Assembly (NCBI GenBank): GCA_030680795.1
Contig: JAUXUL010000019.1
Location: 19,316-83,315, forward strand
DNA: 64,000 bases
From: Anaerolineales bacterium
Lineage (GTDB): Bacteria > Chloroflexota > Anaerolineae > Anaerolineales > Villigracilaceae
Direction of reading: 5' to 3'
Shown one piece after another: positions 53,248 through 62,086 of the stretch (position 1 is its first letter; each line of letters opens with the position of its first letter). The translations under genes were made by a program, and so were the position numbers. The notes under the pieces were generated by a model. That model worked only from the letters and a program-made list of their open reading frames with translations. It had not been told where the DNA came from and made no database searches.

Positions 53248-53538
53248 TTAGATTCCCTGCGAATGGGCTAACTTAATTTGAAGATTAGCGCCAACTGCGT
53301 CTGCGTAACGCCGCAAAGTGGACAAACGTACATCGTCAGCATGATTTTCAATGCGTGAAATAGCAGATTTCTTAGTTCGTAATTTTCGAGCCACTTCCTC
53401 TTGAGTTAAACCTGCTGATTCTCTTGCCTGACGTAAAATAACGCCAATCTTGAAATCAGCATAACCTGCCTCATAGTTTTGTGCAAACTCCGAATCGCGT
53501 TTGGCGCGTTTTTGAATATACCGTTTTACATCGCTCAT
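53248..53538 (-). CDS. XRE-family antitoxin (HigA-like)
   Basis: 96 residues. The N-terminal helix (SDVKRYIQKRAKRDSEFAQN) is followed by an HTH_3 domain (IGVILRQARESAGLTQEEVA and KKSAISRIENHADDVRLSTL). It should repress its own operon and bind the toxin encoded upstream. The ATG overlaps the toxin stop by four bases. The toxin-before-antitoxin order is the usual one for HigBA. Confidence 0.9.
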   Translation of the reverse strand: MSDVKRYIQKRAKRDSEFAQNYEAGYADFKIGVILRQARESAGLTQEEVARKLRTKKSAISRIENHADDVRLSTLRRYADAVGANLQIKLAHSQGI

Positions 53539-53888
53539 GACTTTTTTCTCCTTGCTAAATATTCTTCCTTACGGCGAATCGCAAGCGTAATTTCCTGTGA
53601 GGGCGTCTTTTGTGTTTTCTTGGCGAAACCATTTGTCAGGATCAACAAATTACCACCATCGAAAAAACCCAACAATCTGAAAATATCATTCCCAAATTGT
53701 ATACGGACTTCCCAGATATCTTCGCTATCAACCAGTTTCTTGAAATACTGACGAGGAACTATATCCAACTCTTCAATCAACTGCAAAACCCATAGAACTT
53801 TTTGTGCTTGCTTGCCAGTCAAAGAATCGAGAAATGCTTCGACAGGGTAATTGCTGTTAGGAAGGTGATAGAAATCCACTGTCCGCAT
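53535..53888 (-). CDS. HigB/RelE-type toxin (Gp49-like)
   Basis: 117 residues. PVEAFLDSLTGKQAQKVLWV and IWEVRIQFGNDIFRLLGFFD, then LILTNGFAKKTQKTPSQEI, are the pattern of phage-derived Gp49-like/HigB toxins, ribosome-dependent mRNA endonucleases. The basic C-terminus (RRKEEYLARRKKS) fits. It is translationally coupled to the antitoxin. Confidence 0.9.
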   Translation of the reverse strand: MRTVDFYHLPNSNYPVEAFLDSLTGKQAQKVLWVLQLIEELDIVPRQYFKKLVDSEDIWEVRIQFGNDIFRLLGFFDGGNLLILTNGFAKKTQKTPSQEITLAIRRKEEYLARRKKS

Positions 53889-54467: not shown

Positions 54468-54707
54468 TTATCGTGATGCGGTTGTTGCCTGCGGAATTTT
54501 GGTCGCTTTCAATATTAATCGTAATGCTTCGTTGACCGCCTCATCGTTTGGAAATGCCTTTGCAATTTCAGGGTCAAGGACAACGACATTTGACCCAATT
54601 CTGCGTTTGGGATCAAAACGTCCCTTTGGCAAAATTGTCATTTTTGAGAGGTCATATTCATCTCTCAATTCATAATCATCCCGCTTCGTTGTAGAATTTT
54701 TCTTCAT
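54468..54707 (-). CDS. BrnA-type antitoxin
   Basis: 79 residues from ATG 54707; a longer frame to 54752 exists. DDYELRDEYDLSKMTILPKG and GSNVVVLDPEIAKAFPNDEA then VNEALRLILK match BrnA antitoxins, ribbon-helix-helix proteins that repress their operon and bind BrnT. The gene overlaps the end of brnT by 32 bases, as is usual for this pair. Confidence 0.88.
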   Translation of the reverse strand: MKKNSTTKRDDYELRDEYDLSKMTILPKGRFDPKRRIGSNVVVLDPEIAKAFPNDEAVNEALRLILKATKIPQATTASR

Positions 54708-54957
54708 TTTTCGCTGCCTTTCTTGCGCTAATGATTCGGATTCGGTCTTCACGTTCTGTATGCGCAGCCATTAAGAGTCTGCTCTTTATGGATAGCCCAA
54801 TTGTGATATAGCGTTCTTCTCCCACAGAATGTTCTTCATCCAAAAAACTGATGAATTGTGGATCTTCAAATATTGTACTTGCTTCTTCAAAATCAACCCC
54901 ATGTTTTTTCAGGTTGATTTCGGCTTTTTCGAGATCCCATTCAAAACGAAATTTCAT
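54676..54957 (-). CDS. BrnT-type toxin
   Basis: 93 residues. The N-terminal FEWDLEKAEINLKKHGVDFE and EASTIFEDPQFISFLDEEHS are typical of BrnT, followed by ERYITIGLS and REDRIRIISARKAAKNEE. BrnT is a ribonuclease with a RelE-like fold that slows growth when free. It is the first gene of the pair with BrnA. Confidence 0.9.
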   Translation of the reverse strand: MKFRFEWDLEKAEINLKKHGVDFEEASTIFEDPQFISFLDEEHSVGEERYITIGLSIKSRLLMAAHTEREDRIRIISARKAAKNEEKFYNEAG

Positions 54958-56128: not shown

Positions 56129-57688
56129 TCAATCTTCAATCTTTACATAGTGATTTACAAGATCTTTCGATACGGGAGAAACTTCCAACCAAAACCGTTT
56201 ATTCTCTGGATCCCCCGACATGAAGAGTTGATCATATTTGACACGATCATCATTGTGTGGGCCGCGTTCAACCGCACGAAGAGTGAATTCATACAATTGA
56301 CGAGCATTGCTTAACTTTGAACTGAGTGCTATATAGTACAAGCCGAGTTTCTCCACTGCGCGGATATCACGCCCTGTTTTCCTCCCCGCCCGCGCAAATT
56401 GACTTAGTACTACCAGGATGCGATCACCGAAACTCATCGGAGCAATGACACATTCGTTTTCTGTCGGAATTCGGCTGAGCAAGTCCTTGCCCTTAGGTCT
56501 AGCACCGATGCGTTCCTTCAATCCTGCAAGGCTGTACCCTGAACTGCCAGCCATCACAACCACAACGTTCTTCTGGTTGTCGGTCACTTCGTCTAGATAA
56601 GGCAACAGGACTTCATAAGGCCAAGTCGCATCGGGTTGGGAGTCGACTTCATCGATGAGGCATAAACATGGGCTGTTCATAGCCACGATCCCACGCCATT
56701 GTGTTCTGAAATCCTCTTCGCTCACTTTTCCCAGATTTAATTCTACGTAAGTGCAGGCATCTGATAGCATCTCGGCGATTTGCTGAACAAAAAATGATTT
56801 ACCGCTTCCCGGCGCGGCCCAAATCAAATGATTCTCTCTTTTTCCACTTGGTTGCTTTATCCCTGAAACAATTTTCTGTCTGGCATCTTTCAGTTCATTC
56901 AGCACTGTTTCTTCAAAGCGTGTATAACTTCCAACGATGGTGTAGCGGGATAGCTTCACTACATCAAGACCGGCAATGAATGGATATTGCCAGAAGGCGC
57001 TGATTTTCCCCTTGTCCTTGAGCGCTCGGTGATACTCTGTCACATATTCATCAGCTCGCAGTAGGTAGTCTTCTGCCAAACGTTGCTGGAACAGAGGACC
57101 GCTAAATACTTCTCCCCAATCAGACACTGACATGATGTAGTCTTCTTCTGCCCGAGAGTATAACGACCACTGTTTTACATGCTCCTCCGACCGGAAGAGA
57201 TTCATACGACTTCAGTTGAACGGTTTTGTGCCTTCTCGCCAATTTGTAAAGGGGGACATCATGTACCCGACAGTTGTCGGCGGATCAACTTCCAAGATAT
57301 GCTCGTCCCGAAGCCGAATAACGATCGATTCTCCAGAGTCAAGACATCGGGTTTCAATGCGGACTTCTTGTCCCGGAAACAGCCAGCGCACGGCTAGCGA
57401 TTCAAGCCCTCACTGCCCATACCATTTCTGAACTCCGTCCACTGAAATCAGGTTATGTGTAGGGACATTGGAGAATGGCGCCCAGGATTCGATGTAATCG
57501 GTATCATGGCTCATCCAGCATCCGCCCACTGGGGACGCGGCAACAGTCTCGCGTTGTAATTCTCGAGCGCGATCTGGTATTAAGCCAAACATAGATGCCA
57601 TTTCGGAGTAATGAGGGGCACGACCTGTATTGATGAAGGTCTCCAATATCTTGGTATAAGCTGACTGAATCAAATCCTGTGAGAACAT
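56129..57688 (-). CDS. MerB-like protein with two in-frame TGA (putative selenocysteine), fused to AAA ATPase
   Basis: One frame of 520 codons from ATG 57688, with GAGGAG seven bases upstream. The only internal stops are TGA at codon 93 (57412-57410) and codon 159 (57214-57212). Against organomercurial lyase MerB, the text WYGQ-TGA-GLESLAVRWLFPG aligns with LYAWC96ALDTLIFP, RCLDSGES with the Cys117 region, and FN-TGA-SRMNLFRSEEHVKQW with the Cys159 segment. Both TGA therefore fall on the catalytic Cys positions. The frame has no shift, and SECIS-like hairpins follow each TGA. Asp99 of MerB is Glu here. From about codon 225 on the protein continues as an AAA ATPase: Walker A APGSGKS near 293, Walker B CLCLIDEVD near 341, and ends WLEVSPVSKDLVNHYVKIED. 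TGA is an ordinary stop elsewhere in the window. The alternative is a pseudogene whose 3' part (ATG 57205) is read alone. Confidence 0.72.
57182..57199 (-). promoter_or_regulatory. SECIS-like hairpin after the second in-frame TGA
   Basis: Bases 16-22 (CUCUUCC) pair with 27-33 (GGAGGAG) to give a seven-pair stem with one wobble, closed by a GGUC tetraloop at 23-26. The E. coli fdhF SECIS has GGUC at 22-25 of the same numbering. Similarity in place and loop sequence is close. Confidence 0.55.
57380..57396 (-). promoter_or_regulatory. SECIS-like hairpin after the first in-frame TGA
   Basis: Counting the U of UGA as 1, bases 17-21 (UAGCC) pair with 29-33 (GGCUG) around GUGCGCU. A GU sits at 22-23 of the loop, about where the fdhF SECIS has its essential G and U. 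The stem is only five pairs with one wobble. Confidence 0.4.
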
Positions 57689-57719
57689 TGCATTTCTCCT
57701 CGCCGTGCACTAGCATTTA

Positions 57720-60235: not shown

Positions 60236-61078
60236 ATGTTATCAATGAACAAAAACAAACTCAACGACCTCGACCCAAAGACCTGGCTGAAATTTCAAAA
60301 GTCATGGTTCATTCACAACCCGCCGAAACGCAAAAAGGACGCGCTTGTGCATCCCGCCAAGTACCCTGAAACGCTGGCGCAGGAATTCATTGAGTTCTTC
60401 ACCAAAACCGGCAAAACCGTGCTCGATCCAATGGCAGGCACAGGTTCCACTCTCATCGCTGCCCTGCGCGCCGGGCGCAACTCTTACGGCATCGAATTGA
60501 ATCCCAAATACACACAGATTGCAAATCAATTAATCCAAGAAGAACGCGCTATATTAGGTCAAAAAGTCGAAAGTCTAAAGTCTGAGATCATTAATGCCGA
60601 CGCCGTAAATGCAATTGACCTTCAACCCTTCGACATTGCCCAGGGCAGACCTTTGACCTTTGACTATGTATTAACCTCGCCTCCCTACTGGGACATGCTC
60701 CATGCCAAAGGCGCTGTCAACCAAAAGAAACGCCGCGAAGATGAGGAGCTGGATGTCGTTTATTCAGAAGATCCAAACGACCTGGGCAACATCCACGAAT
60801 ACGAGGAATTTCTCGCAAGGCTTGTAAAAATTTATGCCGGCTTAAAACCCTTGCTTCGTGAAAAAGCCTACCTTACAATAATCGTAAAGAACGTCAAGAA
60901 GGGCGGCAGGGTCTATCCGCTCGCATGGGACATCGCCCGCGAACTCGGCCAAACCTACACTCTGAAGGATGAAAAGATCTGGCTGCAGGATAACCAGTCC
61001 CTCGCGCCCTATGGATTGGGAAGCGCCTGGGTCAGCAATACGTTTCATCATTATTGTTTGCAGTTTAGGAATGAATAA
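60236..61078 (+). CDS. DNA methyltransferase (N4/N6 amino-MTase)
   Basis: 280 residues from ATG 60236, or 277 from ATG 60245. The SAM-binding motif VLDPMAGTGST is at 62-72 and the catalytic motif TSPPYWDM at 147-154. TSPPYW is typical of N4-cytosine and some N6-adenine enzymes. HPAKYPETLAQEFIEFF before motif I is the motif X region. The segment QPFDIAQGRPL just before TFDYVLTSPP is encoded by a dispersed repeat (60626-60648), and LGQKVESLKSEI may derive from another. The gene is followed 33 bases later by a protein with a nuclease-like motif, so the two may be a restriction-modification pair. Confidence 0.88.
   Translation: MLSMNKNKLNDLDPKTWLKFQKSWFIHNPPKRKKDALVHPAKYPETLAQEFIEFFTKTGKTVLDPMAGTGSTLIAALRAGRNSYGIELNPKYTQIANQLIQEERAILGQKVESLKSEIINADAVNAIDLQPFDIAQGRPLTFDYVLTSPPYWDMLHAKGAVNQKKRREDEELDVVYSEDPNDLGNIHEYEEFLARLVKIYAGLKPLLREKAYLTIIVKNVKKGGRVYPLAWDIARELGQTYTLKDEKIWLQDNQSLAPYGLGSAWVSNTFHHYCLQFRNE
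60626..60648. repeat. Dispersed repeat inside the DNA methyltransferase gene
   Basis: CCCTTCGACATTGCCCAGGG followed by CAG, of the same CTTCGACA family as in gyrA and guaA. It encodes PFDIAQG in frame. Confidence 0.75.
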
Positions 61079-61111
61079 ACACCAATTACCAATTACTGGT
61101 TACTATTAACT

Positions 61112-62086
61112 ATGCTCACTACCTCCGACCTCATCCGCCTGCCCTACACACCTGACCTGACCGAAGGCGGCATTGCATACGCCCTTCGTTCATTGACCTA
61201 TGCCTTCGACCGCGCAGGCAGTTCGCCCTACGCTGGATTACGCCGTGTCGTGGCAAATGTGGCAGTGGAGCTCGCCTTTCGGCGTTATCTTTCCCAGCAG
61301 AATATTCCCTTTGAAGTAAAAGCCGCAACCCCATTCACAGATCATGACCGATACGACGTCACTTTGGGCGGGCGCAGATGTGACCTCAAATCCTATCTGA
61401 TCTCGCACCGCGCACAAATTGCAGAGATGCGCCGCAACCCAGCTGTGTTGTTGAACGCGCCCGCGCTGGTCCCTTCGGATCAACATGCGGGCGATGGACA
61501 TTCATACAACGACCTGTACCTATTTGCTTTTATATCTGGCTTGATCGCTGCCTCACAGGCGGACTTAAAAAAAGCAATCGAAACAAAACAACCGCATTAT
61601 CTTGTGAGTGCCATGCCTGAGGTGTGGCGCAAGCCGTTGAATTGGAATCCGCTTGGCGCGCTGACCTTGAAGTCTGATTCAGAGCAGGAACTGCTGATCG
61701 AAATCAACGGGCAGGATGAAGGTCGGGAGTTGAAGCGCTGCACTGTCAGTCTCCCGCCAAAAACAAAAGTCGTAGTGGATGAATCCTTTTATTCGCTGTC
61801 AAGTGTGCATGTCCACCATGTGCCTGATGCGCGGGTTGGGATCCGTTGTAACGCGATAAACGAAGCGCACATTATTTCGCCGTTGGAATGGGGCAACATT
61901 TGGGTGTATGGCATGGAGATTTTTCTAGCGGGTTATATCTCACATGAAGAATTCAGCCAGCGCGCAAATTCGCTTTTACCAAACTCAAAAGTATTTCAAT
62001 ATGAACATACCCGCGTAAAAAATCTGACGCTGCCAATTTCAAATTTGAAGCCCATGCAAAATTTACTTGCCCTGGCTCATAAATGA
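61112..62086 (+). CDS. Putative restriction endonuclease with PD-(D/E)xK-like motif
   Basis: 324 residues, no family I can name. Residues 50-95 contain NVAVELAFRRYL (Glu53) and then DRYDVTLGGRRCDLKSYLI, that is Asp82 followed by D91-L-K93. This is the E...D-x8-D-x-K arrangement of PD-(D/E)xK nucleases, in the usual helix-strand-strand context. The rest has a beta-rich middle (LLIEINGQDEGRELKRCTVS) with no known domain. With the DNA methyltransferase directly upstream on the same strand, a type II restriction enzyme is the simplest reading. The role is inferred. Confidence 0.6.
   Translation: MLTTSDLIRLPYTPDLTEGGIAYALRSLTYAFDRAGSSPYAGLRRVVANVAVELAFRRYLSQQNIPFEVKAATPFTDHDRYDVTLGGRRCDLKSYLISHRAQIAEMRRNPAVLLNAPALVPSDQHAGDGHSYNDLYLFAFISGLIAASQADLKKAIETKQPHYLVSAMPEVWRKPLNWNPLGALTLKSDSEQELLIEINGQDEGRELKRCTVSLPPKTKVVVDESFYSLSSVHVHHVPDARVGIRCNAINEAHIISPLEWGNIWVYGMEIFLAGYISHEEFSQRANSLLPNSKVFQYEHTRVKNLTLPISNLKPMQNLLALAHK

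Follow-up and report, generated by a model that had tools for sequence, protein, structure and literature searches.

The gene examined here lies at 56129..57688 on the minus strand of the window (the whole 64,000-nucleotide stretch of DNA that was analyzed), and all of its features described below lie on the same strand. It encodes a fusion of a MerB-like domain with an AAA+ ATPase, which is 519 residues long when UGA is read as selenocysteine (Sec) at codons 93 and 159 and is closed by a terminal TGA. Translation showed TGA as the only kind of internal stop, at codons 93 (57412-57410) and 159 (57214-57212), and a ribosome binding site, AGGAG (57696..57700), has the ATG 7 nt downstream. Both results bear out an initial annotation of this stretch, which had described one open frame with a good ribosome binding site, interrupted by two TGA codons.

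The first half of the protein matched the Pfam family PF03243 (MerB) with an E-value of 7.5e-17 and 61.9 bits, above the gathering cut-off of 27, and the core of this domain spans residues 72-190 (57119..57475). Residues ~235-519 are an AAA+ ATPase, with a PF00004 core at residues 288-383 (56540..56827) that also scored above its gathering cut-off (33.2 bits versus 21.2). The sequence AAPGSGKS at residues 291-298 (56795..56818) and the sequence LIDE at residues 344-347 (56648..56659) are what we take to be the Walker A and Walker B motifs, and the Foldseek matches of this half include the AAA domains of spastin, RuvB, and ORC. The earlier description of the gene as a MerB-like enzyme holds for the first half of the protein, whereas the ATPase half had been missed.

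Conservation of the two UGA codons at active-site positions

Alignment of the family profile to MerB2 (5c17) placed codon 93 (57410..57412) on the cysteine of FAWC, the MerB Cys96 position, and codon 159 (57212..57214) on the cysteine of GTC, the MerB Cys159 position, which upholds the claim that the TGA codons fall on catalytic cysteine positions. The catalytic triad of MerB, which we take to be Cys96, Asp99, and Cys159, with Asp99 presumed to be catalytic, is not matched in the window protein, where UGA, Glu, and UGA stand at the three positions. The residue at the Asp99 position, Glu96 (57401..57403), is glutamate in 47/47 genes of the set defined below. Cys115 (57344..57346), the equivalent of the MerB Cys117 that had been reported as kept, is likewise present in all 47. 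Among 30 family rows Cys115 is invariant and Cys118 occurs in at least 90%; the window protein has Ser118. The residues preceding the UGA codons in the window protein are Gln92 and Asn158, with no CU motif at either site.

Relatives were collected at several levels. The family-level scan covered 152 genomes and found a relative in 27 of them (28 matches). With TGA read as Sec, the window, G026, and G129 showed TGA at both sites, and a sister group of 25 rows showed Cys93 with TGA159 in 24 cases and Cys at both sites in one. This sister group (L013-L037), from the window's own family, thus combines, in 24 of its 25 rows, a cysteine where MerB has Cys96 with TGA where MerB has Cys159, with the same kind of hairpin downstream as described below; one of its members, L015, scored below the SaoL and MerB cut-offs. 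A TAA in four of the family-scan matches and a third TGA in L012 are those genes' own ends. The scan of the order, over 400 genomes, gave 46 matches in 44 genomes, with two TGA codons in 5, one in 37 (two of these partial), and none in 4, the place of a single TGA being taken from the matches shared with the family-level scan; no internal TAA or TAG was found in the 46 matches. When one genome was scanned for each species, 218 relatives turned up; the best of them make up 79 loci, 44 of which carry the MerB-like domain. These 44 loci with the window, G026, and G129 make up the set of 47 genes, in which L049-L052 (identical in gene to L085, L079, L080, and L081) and the partial L053 and second G329 copy are not counted.

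Codon 159 is TGA in 47/47 genes (the window's and 46 relatives). At codon 93, which 46 of the genes cover, 44 have TGA and 2 have TGC; L122 is cut off before this codon. The MerB region of the 47 genes has TGA or Cys at the UGA sites, never TAA or TAG, and no further in-frame stop. The initial annotation had regarded the pairing of two TGA codons at conserved cysteines as rarely due to chance and had proposed examining relatives for Cys, TGA, and other stops; the recurrence of TGA at both sites, with Cys as the only substitute in the 47 genes, speaks in its favor on both points.

The 47 genes comprise 10 AAA+ fusions, 4 cyclase fusions, and 33 standalone genes. The nine AAA+ fusions besides that of the window have the same layout, with TGA at both sites. 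In the cyclase fusions the TGA-bearing MerB-like domain lies ahead of a class III adenylate/guanylate cyclase, identified by Pfam in L124 and L130 and by eye in L122 and L127, all from Actinomycetota and Acidobacteria records. By their records, the named relatives belong to Chloroflexota, Actinomycetota, Deltaproteobacteria (Syntrophaceae, Desulforhabdus, and others), Nitrospirae, Acidobacteria, and Gammaproteobacteria, and because most of them are metagenome bins, single assignments may be wrong. One record that is not labeled as a MAG is that of Desulforhabdus sp. TSK, the source of the standalone two-TGA gene L128. A tree built from 72 domains, read as unrooted, united the 47 genes in a single branch (support 100/100) that lies outside the sister group, with a warning from the tool that long branches meet where these two join. 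The two genes with Cys93, L127 and L156, lie apart within the 47-gene branch and therefore most simply represent two losses of Sec.

The AAA+ module was also found without a MerB-like domain, behind a receiver domain in L098, alongside TPR repeats in L105 and L109, and ahead of a cyclase in L101. The listing for the database protein P0124 combines the module with an alpha/beta-hydrolase, and L086, L087, and L093 look alike, with no Pfam AAA match in L086. The partners of this module or its look-alikes (L086, L087, L093, L098, L101, L105, and L109) also include a STAND-like ATPase. When the 448 ORFs around the window gene and the 44 loci were clustered, no gene family occurred in more than 5 of the 45 neighborhoods. 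The largest clusters reached 5 loci and, as judged by eye, represent an ABC-type ATPase and an ORF of low complexity. The others covered 3-4 loci, in part from closely related Syntrophaceae, and no operon is therefore claimed. A plasmid collection gave no match, and the 19 pattern matches on viral contigs include no relative.

SECIS-like hairpins downstream of the UGA codons

Each UGA is followed by a SECIS-like hairpin. The first (57382..57398), recognized by stem pairing, has a 6-bp stem and a loop, CGTGC, that starts 17 nt past UGA 1. The second (57182..57199), recognized by stem pairing and by frozen codons, has a 7-bp stem and a loop, GGTC, that starts 19 nt past UGA 2. The signal was derived from the 47 genes together with codon-preserving controls; in the window alone, plain folds of 60-78 nt after each UGA were no better than shuffles. 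The bSECIS model given in Fig. 2 of a 2026 review (PMC13188914) has a loop of 3-9 nt with G in the first two positions, a stem of 4-16 bp, and a distance of 16-37 nt from the UGA, and this geometry was found in 44/44 first hairpins and 47/47 second hairpins. The first loop has a G within its first two positions across the 44 TGA genes and lies at 17 nt in 36 of them, and the second is GGTC at 19 nt in 47/47 genes. Stem cells were paired in 263/264 cases for hairpin 1 (44 sequences) and in 319/329 for hairpin 2 (47 genes), versus 13-54% and 42-59%, respectively, when the partners were slid by 1-3. The energy of the perfect stem in the window is -7.4 for hairpin 1 and -8.8 for hairpin 2, and the published minimum free energy limit of <= -7.5 kcal/mol is reached by the bare perfect stem in only 7/44 first hairpins and in 36/47 second hairpins. 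Synonymous randomization gave p <= 0.05 for hairpin 1 in only 14/44 genes and for hairpin 2 in 39/47.

Because the hairpin stretches also encode conserved residues, codon choice was compared with each gene's own usage. Codons in hairpin 2 are nearly frozen, with CTC at Leu164 in 44/45 genes, TTC at Phe165, CGG at Arg166, and TCG at Ser167 each in 47/47, and GAA at Glu168 in 43/47; in hairpin 1 the same holds for Leu98 (CTG in 39/47). The z values of these codons range from 8 to 30, to be read as relative measures and not as probabilities because the sequences are related. Conserved residues outside the hairpins gave z values of -1.2 to 2.7, except for Asn74 (4.2), Leu116 (3.3), and Glu96 (4.1), the last of which sits between UGA 1 and hairpin 1, so that a z of 3-4 is not special. 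In the sister group, TTC and TCG occur at the equivalent place of the hairpin in 24/24 genes.

Purifying selection and selenocysteine machinery

The initial annotation had suggested a selection test on either side of the TGA codons. Across 22 pairs of at least 85% identity, with the hairpin codons excluded, pN/pS was similarly low in all three parts, at 0.18 before UGA 1, 0.16 between the UGA codons, and 0.16 after UGA 2; because 17 of the 19 genes involved are standalone, this result applies to the family rather than to the window gene. Between the window gene and the fusion L078, pS was 0.91, 0.65, and 0.98 and pN was 0.24, 0.18, and 0.26 in the same order, values near saturation. At the family level, the sequences thus show purifying selection before as well as after each UGA, and such pN/pS values would not be expected of a gene that ended at either UGA or started at Met162.

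A search for selA, selB, selC, and selD, also suggested initially, found all of them in the window genome, with selB above its cut-off and a tRNA-Sec with anticodon UCA. Because SelB is common in the order (312/400 genomes), its presence alone is weak evidence. Among the 40 order-scan genomes that carry a TGA-bearing MerB-like gene, SelB was found in 36 and not in the other 4, of which three are 71-78% complete and one 93%. It was also found in 18 of the 20 host genomes searched, and at E <= 1e-65 no SelB appeared in the hosts of L127 and L139. The selD gene of the window genome (L046, G000:C5:9855-10787) has one in-frame TGA and is therefore probably itself a selenoprotein gene. For the MerB-like domain, the proposal that both catalytic residues may be selenocysteine is strongly supported by the sequence data, and both UGA codons are predicted to encode Sec. 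None of the refuting outcomes that the initial annotation had named for this proposal occurred.

Representation of the family in protein databases

When the piece after UGA 2 was searched against 5.8 billion proteins, 627 hits were obtained; of the best 120, 100 have as their first residue the methionine just past UGA 2, and the length of 98 is 354-363 residues. The full-length protein as query was covered to at most 82% among the best 120 of 620 hits, the 82% being reached by P0084 (425 aa), which starts just past codon 93 and has Cys159. Where the AAA+ half is named in databases, it is mostly called "AAA family ATPase" or hypothetical protein. With the MerB-like domain as query, the best 120 of 604 hits showed, at sites 93/159, Trp/Trp in 61, Cys/Cys in 7, Ser/Trp in 2, Ser/Cys in 1, and Trp/Leu in 1, and the other 48 had Cys93 and lacked a residue at 159. 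These counts are no measure of frequency, since a gene truncated at codon 93 lies outside the length limits of the search. Trp at these sites most simply reflects TGA as written by a code-4 gene caller. The seven Cys/Cys hits led us to reject the idea of a family without Cys relatives; Cys at both sites together was seen in none of the AAA+ fusions. The databases mostly hold the related genes as cut-off fragments, which has kept the family hidden.

Comparison with known systems

The initial statement that no selenoprotein of this family is known is contradicted by SaoL (NF040728), a known MerB-like selenoprotein with one Sec and the best NCBIfam match of the window protein by E-value. SaoL is the sole MerB-like selenoprotein in the table of the 2026 review, where its single Sec is given as part of a CU motif (PMC13188914), and the MerB-like selenoprotein in the list of a 2022 review has an accession equal to that of SaoL (PMC9312934). 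The window protein scores 31.8 bits with the SaoL model against a cut-off of 140, and nine relatives score 28.4-53.3. As far as SaoL is described by the table and a 159-position model, it differs in its single Sec within a CU motif, whereas the window protein has two UGA codons, neither of them after Cys. Compared with MerB and MerB2 (PF03243; PDB 3f2f and 5c17), the window gene has UGA in place of both catalytic Cys codons, encodes Glu at the Asp99 position, and fuses the domain to an AAA+ ATPase. The score with the organomercurial lyase models NF033555 and NF009710, 25.8 bits, lies below their cut-offs of 200 and 193.

An enzyme-like domain in front of a signaling output is also known from the LipJ lipase/adenylate cyclase (NF058673), to which the cyclase half of L124 is similar (219 bits over profile positions 290-448, under the cut-off of 800). 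The domain in front is a lipase in LipJ and MerB-like in L124, and the window protein has an AAA+ ATPase instead of a cyclase. Two Sec residues per chain are shared with other prokaryotic selenoproteins in the same review table, including MbdU, the F420-reducing hydrogenase delta subunit, and a UxxU metal-binding protein, none of which is MerB-like or AAA+ by the names, domains, and motifs given there (PMC13188914). Neither a two-Sec MerB-like protein nor a MerB-AAA fusion appears in that table, among the literature matches listed, which come largely from outside the subscription journals, or in passages of PMC13188914, PMC9312934, PMC10418091, PMC12013277, PMC2398784, and PMC1088965.

Proposed function and alternative explanations

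We consider it probable that the gene encodes a MerB-fold and AAA+ protein in which both UGA codons specify Sec through likely SECIS-like hairpins and a soft-metal site controls the ATPase, the Sec assignment being read from sequence and the function inferred. The two in-frame UGA codons at the catalytic cysteine positions would be read as Sec, with the hairpin behind each likely helping. Together, the two selenolates and Glu96, which stands at the Asp99 position, would create a soft-metal site. This site may bind or cleave organometals, for example methylmercury, and would control the ATPase according to whether it is occupied. The MerB-like domain could then serve as the input module of a signaling or remodeling protein. 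Such a role is suggested because the MerB-like domain also precedes class III cyclases and because the AAA+ module also pairs with alpha/beta-hydrolase, receiver, TPR, and cyclase domains; it cannot be the only role, since standalone forms are commoner than fusions. Among the 45 clustered neighborhoods, no conserved neighbor speaks for a metal role.

Two alternatives deny the gene its Sec residues. It is very unlikely that the gene is decayed or carries sequencing errors, with the real gene being a 358-codon AAA+ frame from Met162. Database annotation, in which most of the best hits start at this methionine, favors such a start, whereas pN/pS is equally low on both sides of the UGA codons, TAA and TAG never occur in the MerB region, and Cys replaces TGA at codon 93 in two genes. 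Codon 162 is ATG in 45/47 genes (Ile in L011 and L012), and restart at Met162 in the standalone genes, most of which also keep it, would give only a fragment of ~75 aa. That UGA is read as an ordinary residue, Trp or another, through a changed genetic code is scarcely credible. The Trp/Trp majority of the best 120 domain hits, taken from protein records alone, would fit it, whereas TGA is the terminal stop of the window gene and of 16-17 among the 47 genes (L125 and L140 being read past their own stop in this count), which agrees with the earlier view that there is no global recoding. The genome also has Sec machinery, and the residue exchanged for TGA in the named genomes is Cys.

Two further alternatives accept a double-Sec protein and assign it another role. 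The MerB-like half may be a working organomercurial or organometal lyase, with the ATPase helping to expel a tightly bound metal product, an explanation that we regard as possible yet rather unlikely. Two selenolates should bind Hg(II) more strongly than a pair of thiolates would, so that metal release could need energy, and the MerB fold, both active-site positions, and the existence of standalone forms are consistent with a lyase. Against it stand the Glu at the Asp99 position in every gene, a score far under the curated MerB cut-offs, the cyclase in place of the ATPase in other members, and the lack of common neighbor families suggesting a mer operon among the 45 clustered neighborhoods. 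A redox role, through a reversible diselenide or reaction with peroxides or electrophiles, appears improbable. The two Sec positions presumably lie together in the MerB active site, and family members commonly have another pair of cysteines, 115/118, but the window protein has Ser118, and no thioredoxin family or fold was found among the Pfam and structure matches.

With a Sec-based soft-metal site controlling the ATPase as the preferred reading, a wider one can be put forward tentatively, at somewhat less than even confidence. In Chloroflexota, Actinomycetota, and relatives of sulfate reducers, two-Sec MerB-like input domains on AAA+ ATPases and class III cyclases may constitute a widespread, nearly unannotated form of selenium-based sensing directed at organometals or other soft electrophiles. 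If the two-Sec assignment is confirmed, the known selenoproteins would gain a family in which both catalytic positions of a mercury-lyase fold carry selenium and the fold is joined to signaling outputs. The family also poses a chemical question, namely whether the change of both Hg-binding thiols to selenols in the MerB pocket serves catalysis, trapping, or sensing.

Other features of the window

At 57203-57214 an ATG lies 6 nt past UGA 2, and this methionine is kept in most standalone genes too. Under Sec scarcity, termination and restart at Met162 could yield an AAA-only product. Elsewhere in the window, a BrnT-type toxin gene (PF04365) at 54468-54957 is followed by a small ORF without a Pfam match, possibly an antitoxin. 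A Gp49-like gene (PF05973) followed by a helix-turn-helix gene at 53248-53888 forms a pair that, as we presume, resembles toxin-antitoxin systems of the HigB/HigA type. A DNA methylase gene (PF01555) at 60236-62086 is followed by a 324-aa ORF without a Pfam match, possibly as a restriction-modification pair.
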